Source of the DNA: Candidatus Poribacteria bacterium
Lineage (GTDB): Bacteria > Poribacteria > WGA-4E > WGA-3G
NCBI GenBank assembly: GCA_003635315.1
Contig: PYJD01000040.1
Span: forward strand, 129,276-193,275
Direction of reading: 5' to 3'
DNA: 64,000 nt
Positions 8,793-55,836 of this stretch are shown in pieces (within the stretch, counting starts at the first letter, position 1; each line of letters starts with the position of its first letter). The notes below the pieces were generated by a model, which was not told the DNA's origin, ran no database searches, and saw only the letters and a program-made list of their open reading frames with translations. Position numbers and translations under genes: made by a program.

Positions 8793-10112
8793 ATGATACA
8801 ATTTGAACAAGAAGAATTTGAAAATGCAAGTGCAAAAATTAAGGTTATAGGGGTAGGTGGAGCTGGTGGCAATGCTGTTAGACGGATGATTGAAGCTGCT
8901 CTCACTGGCATTGAATTTTATGCAGTTAATACTGACTCCCAAGCACTTAATACATGCCACGGAGCAACACAAATACAGATAGGAATGAGCACAACAAAAG
9001 GATTAGGGGCTGGGGCTAATCCTGAAGTTGGAAGGGAAGCCGCTGAAGAAGATAGAGAGACTTTACAAGAAATTGTTGATTCTGCAAATATGGTTTTTGT
9101 TGCTGCCGGAATGGGGGGAGGTACAGGAACTGGTGCTGCTCCTGTCGTTGCTTCTCTTGCAAAAGAAAAAGGGGCACTCACTATTGGTGTCGTCACCCGT
9201 CCATTCAACTTTGAAGGAAAACTCAGGGCAGAAAAAGCTGAAATAGGTTTGGAAGAATTAAGAAATAAATCTGATTCGGTTATTGTTGTGCCAAACCAAT
9301 GCTTGATTGACAACTATGACAGAAAACTCCCTATTCAAGATGCTTTTAAATACGGTGATCAAATTTTATTGCACGCTGTTCAAAGCATTTCCGATATTAT
9401 TACTGAGGCTGGAGAAATAAATCTTGACTTTGCTGATGTCGAAACTGTCATGCGTGATGCCGGAACTGCACTAATGGGTATGGGGAAAGCTACAGGAGAT
9501 AACCGCGCACAATTAGCTGCCGCCGCCGCTATTTCATCACCCTTACTTGAAGAAACCAGTATCGCTGGCGCTGTCGGCATGATTGTAAATATCACCGCAC
9601 CACCAGACTTTAATATGCACGAATTAGACGAAGCTATGAAGGTTATTACTGATGCATCGGAAGATGCACAACCTATCTTCGGTTTAGTTTGTAAAGACGA
9701 ATTGGAATTAAATGATGAGGTTTTGGTTACTGTCATCGCAACAGGATTTGACCCACCTTCAGAAGCCACACCTAATCCAACTGGCAGATATAATCCACAA
9801 GGAGGGAATCCTCAGGGCGGTCAATCTAACCCTATGCTACAAGGTAGTCGAGTACGATCATCGGAGACTGGTACACCTGGACGCAATCAACGTTCTAATT
9901 GGGATAGAACTCCACAAGGGAGAGGGGAGGAAGCACAGAACAATACTCCTACCAGACGAAACAATACTCAAAACACCCCAACCCCTCAAGGACAGGAAAA
10001 TCCTGAAGAAGAAAAAGATAATAATGAAGAACAGGATCAGAACCAAGAAAAACAGTGGGATATACCTACATTTCTTAGAGTTCAACAAAGAAGGGATAAA
10101 CGAAAGAATTAG
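8793..10112 (+). CDS. ftsZ: Cell division GTPase FtsZ
   Basis: GVGGAGGNAV, GMGGGTGTGAAPV tubulin signature; C-terminal conserved peptide DIPTFLR after a Q/N/P-rich linker. Confidence 0.97.
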   Translation: MIQFEQEEFENASAKIKVIGVGGAGGNAVRRMIEAALTGIEFYAVNTDSQALNTCHGATQIQIGMSTTKGLGAGANPEVGREAAEEDRETLQEIVDSANMVFVAAGMGGGTGTGAAPVVASLAKEKGALTIGVVTRPFNFEGKLRAEKAEIGLEELRNKSDSVIVVPNQCLIDNYDRKLPIQDAFKYGDQILLHAVQSISDIITEAGEINLDFADVETVMRDAGTALMGMGKATGDNRAQLAAAAAISSPLLEETSIAGAVGMIVNITAPPDFNMHELDEAMKVITDASEDAQPIFGLVCKDELELNDEVLVTVIATGFDPPSEATPNPTGRYNPQGGNPQGGQSNPMLQGSRVRSSETGTPGRNQRSNWDRTPQGRGEEAQNNTPTRRNNTQNTPTPQGQENPEEEKDNNEEQDQNQEKQWDIPTFLRVQQRRDKRKN

Positions 10113-46324: not shown

Positions 46325-47992
46325 ATGTGGAAGAAATCATTTATTCTTCACAGTCTAATTTACGCTGTTTTATCTTCTTTCATCCCACCTATACTTGCAC
46401 AAGAATCTAACGTTATTTATACTGACCATACAGATGCTGCAGGTATAAATTTTATGCATCTTAACGGTATGTCCGATCAGAAATATCTCCCTGAAACAAT
46501 GGGTTCAGGTTGCTTATTCTTCGATTTTGATAATGATGGATTTCTTGATATCTATCTTGTTAATAGTGGGACTACATGTACGAATATTAATAGATCCCGA
46601 ACCGAATTAAATGAAATAAACAAACTGTATCGCAATAACAGAAATGGTACATTTTCTGACATCACACATAAAGTTGGAATGGGTAGCAATGACGGATTTG
46701 GTATGGGATGTATTTCCGCAGATTATGACAATGATGGAGACCAAGATCTTTACCTAACCAACTTTGGTAGGAATCAACTCTACCGAAATAATGGCGATAG
46801 TACGTTTACAGATGTAACGAAGATGGCAGGTGTAGCAAATGCACAATGGAGTGTGAGTGCCTCTTTTGGAGATTATAATCTTGACGGTTTTATTGATTTA
46901 TATGTAGCAAATTATCTTGATTATAATGTTGAGACGGCACATTCATGTACCCTTGAAGGAGTACATATCTACTGTGGACCACATGAATATCCTGGAGCAC
47001 CTGACACTCTCTATCGGAATAATGGAGATGGTACATTCACTGATGTAACTGCACGTTCGGGGGTGATGAATTCTGGTAAAGGGTTAGGGGTATTATTTAC
47101 CGATTACAACAACGATGGATATCCTGATATCTTTGTAACAAACGATGCAGTTGAGGACTACTTATATCGCAATAACCGAGATGGAACGTTTACAAATGTT
47201 GCTGTTGAAGCAGGTATAGCGTATAACTCGGAGGGGCGTGCAACAGCAAGTATGGGAATTGCACATGGTGATTACGATAACGATGGTGTTATGGACTTAT
47301 TTGTAACGAACTTTTCTTTAGAAGTCAATAGTTTATTTCATAATGATGGTGATGGTTACTATACAATGACCACCTTTGAAGTAGGGCTTGCTGAACCCAG
47401 TTTTTCAAGACTTGGATTCGGTACTCAGTTTTTAGATGTTGATAACAATGGCACTTTGGATCTATTGGTAGCAAATGGACATGTATGGGATAACGTCAAA
47501 CAGATCACACCCACCCTATCATACAAACAGACATGCCAACTGTTTCTTAACAACGAAAAAGCGAACTATCGTGATATAACAAACTCAGCAGGTACATTCT
47601 TTAAGCGTCCTGTAGTTGCAAGAGGGACATCCTGCGGGGATTATGATAACGATGGGGATATAGATGTCCTGATTTCCTGTTCCGGTGGAATACCAGTCCT
47701 TCTTCGAAATGACACAATAACAAAGAATAGATGGTTGAAGATTCAATTAACAGGAACGACAGGCAACAAAGATGCAATTGGAACAAAGGTGTATTTAACA
47801 ACTAATAAGACAACATATTTAAGGGAAGTTACATCAGGTGGTAGTTATGCATCTGGTAATGACTATACTCTTCACTTTGGTCTTGGTGCTACTGAAACTG
47901 TAAGTTCAATTAATATACATTGGTTAGGTGGAAACGTACAACATCTTGAAAATGTGTCTACTGAACAAATCCTAAGAATAAATGAAAATTAA
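46325..47992 (+). CDS. CRTAC1-like FG-GAP protein with ASPIC/UnbV domain
   Basis: Repeats DYDNDGDQDLYLTNFGRNQLYRNNGDSTFTDVT; C-terminal LHFGLGATETVSSINIHWLGG. Confidence 0.92.
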   Translation: MWKKSFILHSLIYAVLSSFIPPILAQESNVIYTDHTDAAGINFMHLNGMSDQKYLPETMGSGCLFFDFDNDGFLDIYLVNSGTTCTNINRSRTELNEINKLYRNNRNGTFSDITHKVGMGSNDGFGMGCISADYDNDGDQDLYLTNFGRNQLYRNNGDSTFTDVTKMAGVANAQWSVSASFGDYNLDGFIDLYVANYLDYNVETAHSCTLEGVHIYCGPHEYPGAPDTLYRNNGDGTFTDVTARSGVMNSGKGLGVLFTDYNNDGYPDIFVTNDAVEDYLYRNNRDGTFTNVAVEAGIAYNSEGRATASMGIAHGDYDNDGVMDLFVTNFSLEVNSLFHNDGDGYYTMTTFEVGLAEPSFSRLGFGTQFLDVDNNGTLDLLVANGHVWDNVKQITPTLSYKQTCQLFLNNEKANYRDITNSAGTFFKRPVVARGTSCGDYDNDGDIDVLISCSGGIPVLLRNDTITKNRWLKIQLTGTTGNKDAIGTKVYLTTNKTTYLREVTSGGSYASGNDYTLHFGLGATETVSSINIHWLGGNVQHLENVSTEQILRINEN

Positions 47993-48040: not shown

Positions 48041-48052
48041 TATGGCATTAAT

Positions 48053-48080
48053 ACACCCTTTCCATTGATAATCGCTTCAT
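48053..48080 (+). promoter_or_regulatory. Candidate ECF-type promoter (paralog of 50307-50335)
   Basis: ACACCCTTTCC-11 nt-CTTCAT aligned with the GCAACCTTTCC...CGTCAT upstream of the sigma-WD40 gene. Confidence 0.4.
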
Positions 48081-48118: not shown

Positions 48119-48181
48119 ATGGATTAAGACGACGTTGAATTGATTCATAAGATTATAACAGGTGATGAATCTGCCTTTAAG
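48119..48181 (+). pseudogene. Remnant of an ECF sigma N-terminus upstream of the WD40 gene
   Basis: ATG GAT TAA GAC GAC GTT GAA TTG ATT CAT AAG ATT ATA ACA GGT GAT GAA TCT GCC TTT AAG = MD*DDVELIHKIITGDESAFK, aligning with MEIDDIQLIQQILAGDGSAFG of the 50373 gene. Confidence 0.8.
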
Positions 48182-48192
48182 GAGAATACTAT

Positions 48193-50202
48193 ATGGAAAA
48201 ACAAAAACACTCAATCCCTGTACCAGTAGGTTCATTTGAAGGTGATGAAACAACTTGGGCACTTCCCAATGGTGCGATTGCCAGATTAGGAATAGGTAAT
48301 AGCGTCACAATGACATTATCCCCAGATGGTACGCTTCTCGCCATTGGAAGTTATCTCGGCATGTGGTTGTATGATGTTACTAAACGTACACCCCTATCAC
48401 TTTGGGAAGCAGGAACACAAATTTCGACTGTCGCCTTTTCTGCCTGTGGAGAATGGATAGCAACAAGCAGCTGGGGCGGTCCCATCAAAATCTGGGATGT
48501 GGAAAGCCGTAATTGCTTAACAGAATTGCCGCGAGATGAAAGTGGAGACAATTCCGAACTTGTCTTTTCACCCAATCGAGAATGGTTTGCTGTAGGAGGA
48601 ACAAATAGGAGTTCTAATCCAGAGAAGAAACTATATTGTAGTGTTGAAGTTTGGCGGCTTCCAGAGAATCTACACTCTAATCGTCTTAAGCGAGAATTAT
48701 TGTATGTGGGGACCAATCCGCTTGCTTTTTCACCAGATGGCAGTTTATTCGCTTTTGCTTCACCCGATGGAGCACCTGAACCGTTTAATACAAACGGATA
48801 TCCTGTAATTGATGGAAGATGGTTGTTAGATGCAAGCCAAGTCGTAGTCTATGAATTAGCAACAGGAAAACATCTTACCACTCTTGATGGGGGTGAAGTT
48901 GTTAGTTCTATCTCCTTTTCACCGTGCGGGAAGTTTATGGCTGTATGTAACCATAACGGTATTACCAAGGTATGGAAAGTCCCAGCACAACCCTCAGCAT
49001 TACTGCAACCTTGGCACCTGCATAAGGATTATCAGGAAGTGGACGACAACGGTAGACACGATATCAGTTACGCACCAGAAAACCGACTCTTATCCACTGT
49101 TTACGCGTACAAAGATGGTACACTTTCAGTGCATGATTTAGATAACAATGAAATACTTTATCAACACACCAAAGAAACTGGACCCTATAACCCTGACTAT
49201 TCCCATGGAACCCGTCTGGCATTCGAGAGTGAAAACGATGTGCATATTTGGATTGAGGGCGAAGACCAACTAATCTCTTTGGGGCATATTGCTGGATTTT
49301 TTGTAGGTCCTCTGCAGTTTTCTTTAGATGGAAAGGCGTTAATCACAACAGACAGGAATGATGGTATTCTCAGTTGGGATATTACACATCCCAATGACCG
49401 ACCTCACATTTTTAAACCCCTCGGCATAAAACCAAATTCAGATAGATGGGGAGAACGTTATTTTTCTGTGGAGGCATCGTCTGAAGGAAGACACTTTGTC
49501 ACCTCCGGTGATGGAAGCAGTGTATGCCTTTGGGAATTGGGAGCAGATAAACCGATCGCATCGTTTTCTATACAAGCTGAAGTGTCTGACGCGGTTTTCT
49601 CCTCTACTGCCAATTTACTCGTCTGCATAGACGAGAATGGTAAGGTCTATATCTGGGATATCGCAACAGGTGAAATCTACGACACCTATACGACAGAAAA
49701 AACACATACTTCACCCTACATCACATTTAGTCCAGATGGCACAAATCTTATCAGTCATTCTGGTCAAATCTATGATGTTGTTCAACGTAAACCTCTGGAC
49801 TTGTATTCAACTGAGGATGGAATACAATTCTTGGCGTTTTCCCCGAATCCCTCCCAAATCTGGTGTGATTGTCCAGGATGGGATAATCTGACAATAGATT
49901 TACGGGATATCCTTCGGGATGAAGAAGTGTTGGAAATTCCTAAACCGGAGTGGTGGGAACCAAAATATATTGAAACGTTTTCATTATCTAATTGTGGACA
50001 ATATGTCGCTTGCAGCCCTGATACCTGCACACGTGATGGGTATATATGTGTTTGGGACATTCGCAAAGGAGATGAACCTATTGTTACGTTTGAGTTGACA
50101 GAAGGGGTATCTTCTCTTGCCTTTTCTCCAGATAGGACACTTTTAGCAAGTGCTGGTACAAGCGGTGCAATCCTGCTTTGGGATCTAACGCCTTATCTGT
50201 GA
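48193..50202 (+). CDS. WD40-repeat protein (paralog of the WD40 part of the 50373 gene)
   Basis: N-terminus MEKQKHSIPVPVGSFEGDETTWALPNGAIARLG matches an internal segment of the neighbour; WD40 units (VSSLAFSPDRTLLASAGTSGAILLWDL). Confidence 0.9.
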   Translation: MEKQKHSIPVPVGSFEGDETTWALPNGAIARLGIGNSVTMTLSPDGTLLAIGSYLGMWLYDVTKRTPLSLWEAGTQISTVAFSACGEWIATSSWGGPIKIWDVESRNCLTELPRDESGDNSELVFSPNREWFAVGGTNRSSNPEKKLYCSVEVWRLPENLHSNRLKRELLYVGTNPLAFSPDGSLFAFASPDGAPEPFNTNGYPVIDGRWLLDASQVVVYELATGKHLTTLDGGEVVSSISFSPCGKFMAVCNHNGITKVWKVPAQPSALLQPWHLHKDYQEVDDNGRHDISYAPENRLLSTVYAYKDGTLSVHDLDNNEILYQHTKETGPYNPDYSHGTRLAFESENDVHIWIEGEDQLISLGHIAGFFVGPLQFSLDGKALITTDRNDGILSWDITHPNDRPHIFKPLGIKPNSDRWGERYFSVEASSEGRHFVTSGDGSSVCLWELGADKPIASFSIQAEVSDAVFSSTANLLVCIDENGKVYIWDIATGEIYDTYTTEKTHTSPYITFSPDGTNLISHSGQIYDVVQRKPLDLYSTEDGIQFLAFSPNPSQIWCDCPGWDNLTIDLRDILRDEEVLEIPKPEWWEPKYIETFSLSNCGQYVACSPDTCTRDGYICVWDIRKGDEPIVTFELTEGVSSLAFSPDRTLLASAGTSGAILLWDLTPYL

Positions 50203-50306
50203 TTGTTTTATTTAATTGTCAATCTTTCTGTGTAGACACATGCACTTCTTAACAACCGAATTATAGATTTTACAACATATTGATTTTTTCAATTTATGAC
50301 AACCAT

Positions 50307-50335
50307 GCAACCTTTCCACTTCAAAATCGCGTCAT
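50307..50335 (+). promoter_or_regulatory. Candidate ECF-type (autoregulatory) promoter
   Basis: GCAACCTTTCC-12 nt-CGTCAT, like generic ECF AAC / CGTC promoter elements. Confidence 0.5.
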
Positions 50336-50372: not shown

Positions 50373-52985
50373 ATGGAAATAGACGACATTCAATTGATTC
50401 AGCAGATATTAGCAGGTGATGGATCTGCTTTTGGTGAATTAGTCCAAAAACACCAAAAAAGTGTTCATGCCCTTGCATGGCGGGAAATTGGTGATTACCA
50501 CATTGCTGAAGAAATCACGCAGGATACCTTCTTACAAGTGTATAATAAATTATCAGACTTAAGAGACCCAAATCTATTCGCTGGATGGTTACATGCCATC
50601 GCTAAACGACATTGTATTGCATGGTTGCGTAAGAAAAAACTTGCAATGCAATCATTGGAATTAGTAAATGATGATATAATTGAGAAAATTGATTATTCAT
50701 CTTATTTGGCAGAACAACGCGAAAAAGCATCAGCAGAACGACGTCGTGAAATCGTTGAGAATCTTCTGGAAAAGTTGCCAGAGACCGAACGCACAACAAT
50801 GATTCTCCACTATCTCGGGGAAATGTCGTGTAAAGGAATAAGTAAGTATTTAGGTGTGTCTCTGAACACAGTTAAAAGTCGGCTCAACCGAGCGAGAAAT
50901 CGTTTAAAACAAGAAGAACCCATTTTTCAAGACACCCTTGATCAAGGACAAGGAAAAGACTTTATGGAAAACCAAACACGTTCAAGTCCCTTACCAGTAG
51001 GTTCATTTGAAGGTGATGTAACAACTTGGGCACTCCCTGAAGGTGTAATTGCCCGGTTGGGGCGCGGAAGTGAACCTGCAATGGCGTTCTCACCTGATGG
51101 ACAGTCCATTGTCATTGGCACATGCACAGGACTCTGGTTATATGACCTCACAACACTTTCCCCTGTTGCACTTTGGGAGATAGAACATTCGTATGTCGAA
51201 TCTGTTACCTTTTCACCTAACGGAAAATGGTTAGCCGCCAGTTTATCAGAACGATTACTAAAGATTTTGGATGTCCAGACTGGGACTTGTTTGACACAAA
51301 TCAAATCTGAGAGTCATAATGAATGCGTGACCTTTTCCCTTGACAATAGGTATATCGCAGTTAATTCTTCTGTCTATGATAGCACCCCGATTGTTGAAGT
51401 CTGGTATGCGGATACTGGCAAACCGTTTGCAAAATTCACCGCAGACGAGGAAAGAGCTGGACATTACCAACCTATTAGTTTCTCACCTGATACTCGACTG
51501 ATTGCGTCTACGTGCATGTCTCCTAACTCTGATGATGCTGGGTCAATATTAGTGTGGGACATGAAAAGCCGCGAACTAATTGCATGCCTCTCAGCACATA
51601 CCCTTTGGATAACTACTCTTTGCTTTTCACCATGTGGACAGTTTCTCGTCTCTGGTGGTAAAGATGGCAAGGTGTACGTTTGGGGTGTCAATACTTGGAA
51701 TCAAGTCCGAGAATATGCCGATTATGGTAAGGTGTATAGTATTATCCCATCCTATTCACCTGATGGAAAACTACGTGCAGCGATTGTAAATTATGATGAG
51801 AATGGTCCCGCAACAATCTCTATTCGAGACCTTGAAAGTAATCAGCAACTTTATAATGATAAACTCTGGGGAAACACAATTGATTCTCCCTCTATCGGTG
51901 ATTGGGGAAACAATGTTCTGTTTTCAAACGGTTCCCAACTTGCTTATGAATACCGACATGAATTTATCAACGTTTGGACTGTTGATAATCCTATCAAACA
52001 ACAATTTACACACTCACCTATCTCGTTTCCGACAGAGATTGTATTCTCTCAGGATGGTAATACATTAGCAGTTGAATATTTTCATGAGGGTGTTGTGTTA
52101 TGGGATATTGAAAGTAAACATTCGCGTCCAGCAGTTCAAGTGAAATCTGCAGGTAAAAATCAGTTTCTGTATAAAACCGTTAGCGGTAAACTCTATGTCG
52201 CAAGTATCAAGAATGTCACTGTTACCCTCTGGGAAGCTGATGGCAATGGAATACCACTTCTTGAAGGAACTAATCGTGATTACTGGAGCGCGAGACCTGC
52301 CTTAACACCGACAGGAACGATTTTCGCTTATGCCAGTGAAGATGGCACAGTACAAGTGTGGGATGTGCTAAATAGAAAGAAACTTCATGAATTCACGCAT
52401 CCTCTTGAGTCATCTAAGGACGACAATGATGAAGATGAAGGAGATTTTGTTGATGAGTTGACATTCAGTCAGGATGGAAAATTACTCGTAAGTGAATCAA
52501 AGTCTAATAATGTTAAACTGTGGGATCTGGAACTTGGTGAAGAGATAAAACCGTTACAAGGTGATAAAATCGGGAGCGTCCGATTTTGCAGGTGTGGACG
52601 GTACCATGCTTACCTGGAAAAAGAAGGAAAGCGATATTGGGATATTGAGAAACGGGAATACTGCAAGGAGATAACCTGCTTGTGTAACCCGACATGGAGT
52701 GAAATAGAAAAAAGGTTGTCAATGCCACCAAAATTCGAACATTTTAAGCCTCCAGATGCATATTCTTTGTGTGGACAATACCTGGCAATAGGAACATCAC
52801 ACAAGGACCTAAATAAGTATCCTATTGATGTATGGGAAGTCTCAAGTGGTAAGCATCTTGTCACCTTAATAGGACCTTCAGATAGATTGGATAATCTCGC
52901 CTTTTCTCCAGACAATAAACTCTTAGCCAGCGCAAGTTATGATGGTACTATTCTGCTTTGGGATTTGACACCTTATATATCCTAA
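50373..52985 (+). CDS. ECF RNA polymerase sigma factor fused to WD40 repeat domain
   Basis: Sigma2 (AFGELVQKHQKSVHALAWREIGDYHIAEEITQDTFLQVYNKL) and sigma4 (LPETERTTMILHYLGEMSCKGISKYLGVSLNTVKSRLNRARNRLK), then WD40 repeats to LDNLAFSPDNKLLASASYDGTILLWDL. Confidence 0.93.
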   Translation: MEIDDIQLIQQILAGDGSAFGELVQKHQKSVHALAWREIGDYHIAEEITQDTFLQVYNKLSDLRDPNLFAGWLHAIAKRHCIAWLRKKKLAMQSLELVNDDIIEKIDYSSYLAEQREKASAERRREIVENLLEKLPETERTTMILHYLGEMSCKGISKYLGVSLNTVKSRLNRARNRLKQEEPIFQDTLDQGQGKDFMENQTRSSPLPVGSFEGDVTTWALPEGVIARLGRGSEPAMAFSPDGQSIVIGTCTGLWLYDLTTLSPVALWEIEHSYVESVTFSPNGKWLAASLSERLLKILDVQTGTCLTQIKSESHNECVTFSLDNRYIAVNSSVYDSTPIVEVWYADTGKPFAKFTADEERAGHYQPISFSPDTRLIASTCMSPNSDDAGSILVWDMKSRELIACLSAHTLWITTLCFSPCGQFLVSGGKDGKVYVWGVNTWNQVREYADYGKVYSIIPSYSPDGKLRAAIVNYDENGPATISIRDLESNQQLYNDKLWGNTIDSPSIGDWGNNVLFSNGSQLAYEYRHEFINVWTVDNPIKQQFTHSPISFPTEIVFSQDGNTLAVEYFHEGVVLWDIESKHSRPAVQVKSAGKNQFLYKTVSGKLYVASIKNVTVTLWEADGNGIPLLEGTNRDYWSARPALTPTGTIFAYASEDGTVQVWDVLNRKKLHEFTHPLESSKDDNDEDEGDFVDELTFSQDGKLLVSESKSNNVKLWDLELGEEIKPLQGDKIGSVRFCRCGRYHAYLEKEGKRYWDIEKREYCKEITCLCNPTWSEIEKRLSMPPKFEHFKPPDAYSLCGQYLAIGTSHKDLNKYPIDVWEVSSGKHLVTLIGPSDRLDNLAFSPDNKLLASASYDGTILLWDLTPYIS

Positions 52986-53161: not shown

Positions 53162-53971
53162 GTGGAGGTAAATATGAAAACATTTTCTTTAAAAACTATT
53201 GTACAAAATCAACAATTGAAGAGTTCGAAATTAATTCTTTCATGTATAATCATCTGCATAGTCACATCAATGTCAGTTGGCGTAATGGATGTATGTGCTG
53301 CTGATTCATTTGGCGATCCATTTGATGGTGCGAAATTGAAAAATGGTAATTGGAAATGGCAGAATGAACCACCAAAATGGGATGTTGGGAAAACACGTGA
53401 AGGTTTTCTCTACATCAATAGTGAACCAAATCGAAATCTTTGGGCTGGAGATGCATCCCATTTTCTTTATCAGGAAACCGATACGGACATGTTTGATGTG
53501 GAAACCCAATTTGTAGCAAAATGGGATACTACATCTGCAGTTAACGGTCTATTGGTAAAAAGCCCTGGTGATAACAATTGGGTGACAATCAAATTTTGGT
53601 CGCGGGATGCTGGACCTAAAGGACAGATACAATATCAGACCAGACAAGCTGGAATGGGACCACCAGATGTACATTGGAAAGATGAATTTGGTGATTTTGG
53701 TGATGCCCTACTTGCTCTAAGACTCAAAAAAGAAGGGGATACCTATACTGCATGGTATAAAACCGAGAATGATAAAGATTGGGTTGATATTGGAGAGGGT
53801 AATTTCACCTTGAATCCACCACTACAACTCGGTATATACGCAGGGGTTGCTGCCGGAGCAGGTGAACTTGAAGTGGAATACGAATATTTCAATGATAATA
53901 TGAATCCGTTCCCTGTTGAACCTGGGGGTAAAGCAACTACTACATGGGGAGACGTCAAGAGACAATTCTAA
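53162..53971 (+). CDS. Exported DUF1349-like (ConA-like fold) protein; alternative start ATG 53174
   Basis: Signal peptide; FDVETQFVAKWDTTSAVNGLLVKSPGDNNWVTIKFWS, LQLGIYAGVAAGAGELEVEYEYF. Confidence 0.78.
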   Translation: MEVNMKTFSLKTIVQNQQLKSSKLILSCIIICIVTSMSVGVMDVCAADSFGDPFDGAKLKNGNWKWQNEPPKWDVGKTREGFLYINSEPNRNLWAGDASHFLYQETDTDMFDVETQFVAKWDTTSAVNGLLVKSPGDNNWVTIKFWSRDAGPKGQIQYQTRQAGMGPPDVHWKDEFGDFGDALLALRLKKEGDTYTAWYKTENDKDWVDIGEGNFTLNPPLQLGIYAGVAAGAGELEVEYEYFNDNMNPFPVEPGGKATTTWGDVKRQF

Positions 53972-53985
53972 GGAGGCTATTCACC

Positions 53986-55836
53986 ATGCGGAACAGTTTA
54001 CTTATTATTATTATCTGTGTTATTCTCGTCTCTCCACTATATGCTGCACCATTTGTTGATGTTAGTAATCTTGCAGGTGTTACGCACCGGGATATACCTG
54101 TTGACATTGATTCCGGGACTTGGTTAGGTCCCGGAACTGCAGCTGTAGATTTTGATAACGACACCTGTTGGATGGATATCTTTGTTATTGGTGATGGTGG
54201 TCTCCCTAATGCCCTATACCATAATAATGGGGATGACACTTTTCAAGAGATTGCTGAAAGTGCAGGTATTGCAAATACCCCTAAGGCAAGAGGATGTGTT
54301 TGGTTTGACTATGACAATGATGGGTGGCGGGATCTATACGTGACATGTGATGGACCAAACTTTCTATTTGCTAATAACGGGGATTGTACATTTACGGATG
54401 TTAGTCAACAAGCAGGGGTTGCTGATGATCTTCATGGAACGAGTATTGCAGTAGCAGATTATGACCACGATGGATGGTTAGATATCTATGTTGCAAACTG
54501 GGGTCGTCCAGCATCTCTTTTAGTATTTGATCCTGCCCCCAGAACCAACCGTTTATATCGAAACCTTGGTGATGGTACATTTGAAGAGGTCGCTGAAACT
54601 GCTGGGGTTGCAGATGAAGGTATTGCTTGGGGCGCAATTTTCTTTGATTACGACAATGATACATGGGCGGATTTATTCGTAGCCAATGACCACGGTCCCG
54701 ATAAACTCTATCGTAATAAAGGTAATGGCACTTTCGAGGATGTTTCGAATGAATCTGGAATTGTAACACAGATTAGAGGAAAACCTACTGGTGCGATGGG
54801 TCTTTGTGTAGGAGACTATGATAACGATACTGACCTTGACCTATTTGTCACCAATTACGATGAGGATTTACTCTGGCGGAACAACGGTGATGGTACATTC
54901 TCAAATGTCGCTGAAGAAGTTGGGGTAGCCAATGAAGGTGTTGGTTGGTATGCAAGTTTTGTTGATTTTGATATGGATGGGGACAGTGATTTATATGTGG
55001 TCAATGGTGATGTTGATAACTCACAGAAGACAAATGTAAACCGTCTATATGAGAATCATAAAGGGCAGTTCGTTGATAAAGCAGGGACTTATAACCTTGG
55101 AGTTGATGCTGTTGCCCGTGGTGCCACCGCTGGCGATTTTGATAACGACGGCGATGTAGATTTTTATATTGTCAATAATACAGGGAACACTTTACTCAAA
55201 AACAATGTAAATCCAGATAATGACAGGCTTAAAATAAGACTACGTGGTATTGAAAGTAATCGTGATGGTATAGGGGCTCGTGTAGAACTAAAAATAGCCG
55301 ATCACATTCAAACACAAGAAGTCGTTTGTGGTACAGGTTTCTTAGGTAGTGATAGTTTAGAATTGGAATTTGGTTTAGCAAAAGCTAATAGGATTGACTC
55401 AATTACAGTGAAATGGCCATCTGGTATTGTAGATACGTATGGCAGAATGTGGAGTCCGAGTCATATTTCAGTTATTATTTTTACTGAAGGTGAAGCCAAA
55501 CAACTCATGGTTGCTGTTGAACCGAAAGGAAAACAAACTGTTACTTGGGGAAGAGTGAAAACAGCTGAAGTGTTCCAAAATTATCCAAATCCATTCAACC
55601 CTGAAACCTGGATTCCCTACAAATTAAATGAATCAGTTGGTGTGAATATATCAATCCTTTCACCAACTGGAGAATTAGTCAGACATTTCAATCTTGGAAA
55701 ACAGGCACCAGGTGATAAGACCCTATATTGGGATGGAAAAAATACGGATGGAGAAAGAGTTGCCAGTGGAATCTATTTTTATCAGTTTGAAGCAGGGAAT
55801 ACACAGACTTTGAAAAAAATGTGGCTCATGAAATAA
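53986..55836 (+). CDS. Exported FG-GAP/ASPIC-UnbV protein with C-terminal T9SS/FlgD-like domain (start chosen at ATG 53986)
   Basis: FG-GAP repeats (DYDNDTWADLFVANDHGPDKLYRNKGNGTFEDVS), LEFGLAKANRIDSITVKWPSG, C-terminal NYPNPFNPETWIPYKLNESV..ASGIYFYQFEAG; AGGAGG upstream. Confidence 0.92.
   Translation: MRNSLLIIIICVILVSPLYAAPFVDVSNLAGVTHRDIPVDIDSGTWLGPGTAAVDFDNDTCWMDIFVIGDGGLPNALYHNNGDDTFQEIAESAGIANTPKARGCVWFDYDNDGWRDLYVTCDGPNFLFANNGDCTFTDVSQQAGVADDLHGTSIAVADYDHDGWLDIYVANWGRPASLLVFDPAPRTNRLYRNLGDGTFEEVAETAGVADEGIAWGAIFFDYDNDTWADLFVANDHGPDKLYRNKGNGTFEDVSNESGIVTQIRGKPTGAMGLCVGDYDNDTDLDLFVTNYDEDLLWRNNGDGTFSNVAEEVGVANEGVGWYASFVDFDMDGDSDLYVVNGDVDNSQKTNVNRLYENHKGQFVDKAGTYNLGVDAVARGATAGDFDNDGDVDFYIVNNTGNTLLKNNVNPDNDRLKIRLRGIESNRDGIGARVELKIADHIQTQEVVCGTGFLGSDSLELEFGLAKANRIDSITVKWPSGIVDTYGRMWSPSHISVIIFTEGEAKQLMVAVEPKGKQTVTWGRVKTAEVFQNYPNPFNPETWIPYKLNESVGVNISILSPTGELVRHFNLGKQAPGDKTLYWDGKNTDGERVASGIYFYQFEAGNTQTLKKMWLMK

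Follow-up and report, generated by a model that had tools for sequence, protein, structure and literature searches.

A gene on the forward strand at positions 50373 to 52985 of the 64,000-nucleotide stretch of poribacterial DNA analyzed here (the window) joins an ECF sigma factor to a long array of WD40 repeats in a single protein of 870 amino acids. Taken together, sequence comparisons across related genomes point, at about even confidence, to a soluble one-protein ECF regulator that would activate its own transcription, give rise to two products, and have its sigma part gated by its WD40 part.

Architecture and conservation of the fusion gene

The open reading frame extends from an ATG to a TAA codon and contains no internal stops. 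Pfam recognized Sigma70_r2 at residues 23 to 89 (7.6e-12), Sigma70_r4_2 at residues 126 to 178 (1.2e-14), and WD40 models across residues ~236 to 867, and the general ECF model of NCBIfam, TIGR02937, scored 92.7 bits, well over its cut-off of 42.9. The module encoded at positions 50373 to 50918 (+) is an ECF sigma factor (group 4 of the sigma70 family), containing sigma2 and sigma4 and lacking sigma1 and sigma3. An earlier sequence-only reading had described a sigma2-sigma4 ECF module and a long WD40 part in the same frame; the single ATG-started frame and the Pfam support for both halves bear this out.

The two halves are connected by a QDTLDQGQGKDF-type linker (50919 to 50963, +) that is devoid of a transmembrane helix. 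Hydropathy analysis ruled out membrane anchoring of the fusion protein as a whole (19-residue maximum of 1.05), and there is therefore no membrane route for it. The AlphaFold model, built from 6 sequences, is of low confidence (mean pLDDT of 61.6, pTM of 0.48) and too weak for the analysis of sigma-WD40 contacts; it features helices up to residue 181, a disordered linker (residues 182 to 221), and then strands in regular succession, consistent with about 14 WD40 blades. Among solved structures, the best Foldseek matches of this model were WD40 propellers of the double or highly repetitive kind (2ymu, AIP1, and Utp21), and the WD40 part is predicted to form two propellers with about 14 blades.

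The genome assembly that contains the window has a size of 4.33 Mb and a completeness of 90%, and the genus set comprised 18 genomes, its own included. Across this set, the contiguous sigma-WD40 frame was found ten times, spread over nine genomes of a single poribacterial genus, namely, the window, G036 (85% identity), G037 (two copies), G046, G043, G038, G042, G034, and G045, the last of which was matched over residues 1 to 763 only. The G046 copy, 74% identical to that of the window, sits on a single-contig chromosome of 5.3 Mb (locus L031 is this chromosome and L032 is contig G037:C129; each was counted once). A frameshift or an assembly join between the halves, which the sequence-only reading had named as what would refute its proposal, was ruled out as the cause of the fusion by these orthologues in nine genomes, one of them a single-contig chromosome. 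Compared with the window fusion, dN/dS in the orthologous fusions ranged from 0.11 to 0.21 in the sigma half and from 0.24 to 0.40 in the WD40 half, confirming that both halves are under purifying selection.

The orthologues are found in tight same-strand arrays of sigma-WD40 genes (of both sigma groups described below), WD40-only genes, and sigma-helix-WD40 genes, frequently separated by gaps of 13 to 100 nt, and the neighbors without WD40 repeats differ between loci. In the window, the array is down to two genes, a WD40-only gene starting at 48193 and the fusion at 50373. This pair is flanked on both sides by proteins with FG-GAP and UnbV/ASPIC domains (46325 to 47992 and 53944 to 55836; Pfam), the second of which also carries FlgD_ig and a Por-type secretion tail. 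No anti-sigma gene was detected among the neighbors of the fusion in the window by Pfam, and the array neighbors of the orthologues were compared as well, in agreement with the lack of an adjacent anti-sigma gene noted in the sequence-only reading.

A sigma family with exchangeable tails

A search with the window protein revealed 20 related ECFs in its genome (group A, the window protein included), and the sigma parts of the others were 48 to 59% identical to it. None of the 20 is a bare ECF; every one is extended. A membrane helix (19-residue hydropathy of at least 1.8) is located about 37 residues past sigma4 in 17 of them, followed by a common PYSLDAQSEMSVEIVDAPIVQ-type stretch and a variable outer domain, which may be a WD40 domain, a BNR/sortilin-like propeller, leucine-rich repeats, a C-type lectin, or others. 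Two members have soluble helical tails, and the window protein has a WD40 tail without a helix. Membrane-helix loci in this genome include L034, L035, L036, L037, L038, L039, L041, L043, L044, and L045. Most of the membrane paralogues lie behind near-identical promoters, and they are possibly many sensors for one promoter.

The 9 sequences that represent the window clade in the sigma tree (support of 100/99) are nested among membrane forms, and the helix-less state requires several changes. By this placement, the window gene is a soluble offshoot of a mostly membrane-anchored family. A distant sigma group with about 27% identity (group B) is also found on soluble WD40 tails; it forms its own clade (support of 100/100), and its sigma-WD40 lineage spans two genera. 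The sigma part of the window protein contains two cysteines, C81 in sigma2, which is present in all group-A members, and C153 in sigma4, which is present in only some of them.

Promoters and probable autoregulation

A predicted autoregulatory ECF promoter, TGCAACC-N17-CGTCA (TGCAACCTTTCCACTTCAAAATCGCGTCA), was identified by motif conservation at positions 50306 to 50334 (+), 38 nt before the ATG of the fusion gene. The pattern TGCA[AC]C-N17/18-CGTCA is located just 5' of the start in the majority of the group-A sigma genes that this genome encodes. Its exact form had 17 matches genome-wide versus 1 for the reversed control, and most of the matches away from sigma genes fell within long reading frames and appear coincidental. 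The stricter pattern TGCAACC-N12-AATCGCGTCA had 23 matches in the 18 genomes, each before a family sigma gene, and 0 when reversed. The promoter is intact in every intact fusion of the window clade. Group-B genes have a separate, strongly conserved promoter that resembles TTTAAACC-N17-CTCCTCTATA (at loci that include L031, L081, L083, L086, L088, L089, L097, and L100). Since family-specific promoters stand upstream, positive autoregulation is likely in both sigma groups, and the motif at 50306 to 50334 strongly suggests that the window sigma factor recognizes this promoter in a positive feedback loop.

In a search of this genome for further targets, the window-clade motif, with up to 3 mismatches permitted, matched only the promoter of the fusion gene itself. 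The looser pattern had an intergenic match at C43:32425 (L116, G000:C43:32425-32453, -), in a region nearly the same as the promoter of the L034 sigma gene. The gene behind it was read by eye as that of a TonB-dependent receptor, based on TonB-box and plug-like sequence, and is a candidate regulon member.

Origin and decay of the fusion

The WD40-only relatives begin with AAGGAGATattttgATGGAAAAC, and the junction sequence of the fused genes is CAAGGACAAGGAGATAATTTTATGGAAAACC; the fusion linker equals the 5' leader of the WD40-only genes, AAGGAGAtaatTTTATGGAAAAC. From this match, the linker codons can be recognized as the former leader, ribosome binding site (RBS), and ATG of a WD40 gene that once stood alone. 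In the WD40 tree, a quick one with long branches of which only starred groupings were used, WD40-only genes are basal to the fused genes and also interspersed among them. The G045 fusion combines a sigma part of the window clade with a WD40 body of another sub-lineage, as seen from the sigma and WD40 trees.

The opposite process, loss of the sigma part, was observed repeatedly. The neighboring WD40-only gene in the window (48193 to 50202, +; 669 amino acids) encodes a paralogue with 28% identity, and its 5' end derives, in accordance with the tree, from a sigma-WD40 gene that lost sigma codons through a deletion. Ahead of it lies a 60-nt relic of a sigma start (48119 to 48178, +) that corresponds to codons 1 to 20, has a TAA at codon 3, and abuts the RBS of the WD40 gene, AAGGAG (48179 to 48184). 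Its alignment with the first 20 codons of the fusion scored 72, and none of 2,000 shuffles scored as high (mean of 19.8, maximum of 37). A decayed promoter copy, TACACCC...CTTCA, precedes the relic at 48052 to 48079 (+) and was recognized by eye in comparison with 50306 to 50334; a search for the intact motif at this position gave no match within the mismatches allowed. In G039, the sigma relic before the WD40 gene is frameshifted. At L032, the sigma part is gone and the reading frame begins exactly at the former internal ATG. In G040 (L085, 2868 to 3158), sigma residues 109 to 193 are left, with a stop; the promoter before the WD40 gene has been preserved, and this gene seems to have turned into a simple target of the family promoter. 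Relatives consisting of WD40 only are common, and since the WD40 part has stayed intact after sigma decay (window 48193, G039, and G040), it is of use without a sigma factor of its own.

The repeated decay of sigma parts (window 48119, G039, and G040) and the presence of the same sigma clade on different WD40 bodies (G045) would fit a scenario in which recombination within tandem WD40 arrays occasionally fuses a sigma factor by chance, leaving debris with no selected function. We consider this scenario highly improbable: the sigma part of the fused orthologues is under purifying selection (dN/dS of 0.11 to 0.21), every intact fusion of the clade has retained its promoter, and a second, independent sigma-WD40 lineage extends across two genera.

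A probable embedded translation start

A Shine-Dalgarno (SD)-like AAGGA at positions 50950 to 50954 (+) is located 9 nt before the in-frame ATG of Met198, with a duplex energy of -5.4 kcal/mol. Initiation at this site would yield a predicted nested product consisting of the WD40 part alone (50964 to 52985, +; 673 amino acids), whose ATG is conserved and aligns with the starts of stand-alone WD40 genes. The other internal Met codons have a mean duplex energy of -2.7 kcal/mol (standard deviation of 2.4), and the window SD is thus of moderate strength, since 13 of 102 of these codons score as well. In the window clade, the embedded ATG is present in 10/10 orthologous fusions and a clear SD in 8; the SD is lost in the closest relative, G036. 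Within this clade, the SD codon is not exceptionally conserved (GGA in 8/9, with 34 of 143 four-fold columns as conserved), and the proposal of a nested start consequently rests on the group-B lineage.

The group-B set contained 30 non-redundant genes from two genera, and in all 30 an SD precedes an ATG whose position differs by at most one codon. The residues around the site vary (RGGK, KGET, KGVS, RGEV, EGVN, and so on), and the SD Gly codon underwent 2 third-base changes on the tree versus a mean of 7.7, the lowest value of 25 four-fold columns; one of the two changes (L148) still leaves AAAGGAGG. Similarly, in a first group-B set of 21 genes, the SD Gly codon was GGA in 20/20, and elsewhere the major-base fraction had a mean of 0.58 and was at most 0.76. 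The membrane class has no such conserved SD and ATG at the matching place. Tandem gene conversion was dismissed as the cause of the conservation, as it would have homogenized the flanks too, yet these vary. Internal initiation is the simplest reading of the group-B conservation. With an RBS and an ATG kept at the junction, free WD40 protein is probably made from the same mRNA, which would thus give two products, sigma-WD40 and WD40 alone.

A simpler explanation, which takes up the suggestion of the sequence-only reading, is that the WD40 part is an in-cis sensor or anti-sigma domain comparable to the extensions of ECF41, ECF42, and ECF57, that the full-length protein alone matters, and that the RBS and ATG persist as a fossil of how the gene arose. 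Other ECFs are indeed controlled by C-terminal extensions (PMC8999054, PMC3426412), and a fossil would agree with an embedded site that in the window clade is no more conserved than others and has lost its SD in G036. We nevertheless judge this explanation rather unlikely, given that nucleotide-level conservation of the site in group B and in 16/16 sampled sigma-FtsZ genes (see below) is hard to account for by a fossil, and that WD40-only copies are intact after sigma loss.

Fusions to FtsZ and DNA polymerase III alpha

A group-B-like ECF is fused to an FtsZ-type GTPase domain at G000:C24:43031-44227 (L040:10029-11228, -; Pfam Tubulin, 2.4e-44). Relatives of this gene were found at L174 to L178 and L187 to L189, and the sigma-FtsZ query had a match at an E value of 1e-40 or better in 59/59 family genomes searched; among the matches listed, most of the 59 genomes have full-length sigma-FtsZ and a few have FtsZ or the sigma part alone. 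The short form, to which the L040 gene belongs, ends before the T7 loop, and longer forms contain the whole FtsZ. Several of the long forms continue in the same frame with PHP and DNA polymerase III alpha domains, resulting in proteins of 1,350 to 1,440 amino acids (sigma-FtsZ-DnaE; L179 in G083, L180 in G081, L181:957-5012 (-) in G075, and L185:567-4880 (-) in G041). A separate dnaE of normal size is also present in 5/5 triple-fusion genomes checked (G083, G081, G082, G041, and G044), and the one dnaE found in the genome of the window is unfused. The window itself also contains the canonical ftsZ of this genome, which is unfused, at about 8805 to 9401 (G000:C40:138080-138676). At the sigma-FtsZ junction, an SD and an ATG were present in all of the genes sampled.

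The joining of the cassette to unrelated proteins led us to take seriously a second alternative, in which the sigma part is a self-expression module, and the WD40 part or other partner is the output: the sigma factor would autoactivate its gene and the WD40 genes behind it, and the WD40 part would have no control over it. This would be in line with the strict promoter occurring before sigma genes only, with the range of partners (WD40, TPR-like helical repeats, FtsZ, and FtsZ-DnaE), with the broken sigma gene of G040 whose promoter is intact ahead of the WD40 part, and with the WD40-only genes behind the fusion in tight arrays. However, an uncontrolled ECF would be constitutively on, most paralogues display binding domains outside the cytoplasm, anchored by a membrane helix, an arrangement that resembles a sensor, and at least one family promoter precedes a TonB-dependent receptor gene and not a sigma gene. 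We therefore hold it to be unlikely.

More generally, we tentatively propose, at slightly below even confidence, that these genes represent a poribacterial device in which an autoregulatory promoter and an ECF cassette are placed in-frame on the 5' end of a gene that is itself intact, with selection still acting on the RBS and start of that gene; the device would have been used with WD40 (in two independent sigma lineages), FtsZ, and FtsZ plus DNA polymerase III alpha. As the device keeps the RBS and start of the joined gene, the protein would be made both sigma-tethered and free, and the result would be a self-activating switch with a built-in competitor.

Proposed mechanism

For the window gene, we favor the two-product regulator introduced at the outset. 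Its sigma part would recognize its own upstream promoter and thereby establish positive feedback, and use of the embedded start would provide fused sigma-WD40 and free WD40 from one mRNA. Contacts of the WD40 propellers, either with a protein partner in the cytoplasm or between the propellers themselves, may decide whether the sigma part is free for RNA polymerase. The loop might then be damped by free WD40, which would rise with the feedback, and by the products of the WD40-only neighbors, through competition for that partner or through capping of the fused form. A purely in-cis role of the WD40 part appears too simple because WD40-only relatives persist without a sigma factor and the junction keeps an RBS and an ATG. 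If true, the nested start would create a self-limiting positive feedback loop within a single gene.

Long-extension ECFs are common in poorly studied phyla. The family described here is a natural series in one genome, with one sigma type, one promoter type, and many sensors that are either membrane-bound or soluble. It makes two questions testable, namely, whether many sensors converge on one promoter and whether a free sensor produced from an embedded start limits its own sigma factor.

Comparison with known systems

The sequence-only reading had stated that WD40-extended ECFs have precedent, and the literature substantiates this, since C-terminal WD40 extensions are reported for ECF57 and for ECFs of Planctomycetes (PMC8999054, PMC8567305). 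A paper on eukaryote-like repeat proteins of Poribacteria describes abundant WD40 and does not mention sigma factors (PMC3909097). A search of the open-access literature, with subscription journals largely outside its reach, turned up neither a paper on poribacterial ECFs nor one describing nested starts in ECF genes. Sigma-WD40 ECFs are hence already known; for the membrane-anchored series, the shared promoter, and the embedded start, the literature searched offered no counterpart.

Like the window gene, ECF57 consists of an ECF sigma2-sigma4 module followed by WD40 repeats, with no need for a dedicated anti-sigma factor. ECF57 has two cysteines that may link sigma2 and sigma4, and the window protein has C81 and C153, the latter not conserved in the family. 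ECF57 belongs to Planctomycetes, whereas the window gene is from Poribacteria, and PMC8999054 does not describe for ECF57 an embedded RBS and ATG, an autoregulatory promoter that is shared, or WD40-only paralogues located in the same array. ECF41 and ECF42, with SnoaL-like or TPR C-terminal extensions, resemble the window protein in being soluble one-protein ECFs with a fused regulatory domain, but their extensions have another fold and are much smaller than the WD40 part. To our knowledge, ECF41 and ECF42 have no nested start.

ECF48, ECF52, ECF53, and IutY (ECF243) are membrane-fused ECFs that are released by proteolysis. They are similar to the 17 membrane paralogues (of 20) in the succession of a sigma part, one membrane helix, and an extracytoplasmic domain, whereas the window protein has no helix after sigma4. 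The paralogues differ from them in that Pfam detected no zinc-finger anti-sigma domain, and propellers, leucine-rich repeats, and lectin domains are present instead. Finally, the two tandem propellers of the low-confidence window model are reminiscent of the double WD40 propellers of Nostoc 2ymu, AIP1 (1nr0), and Utp21 (4nsx), from which the window protein is distinguished by the attachment of its propellers to a sigma factor.
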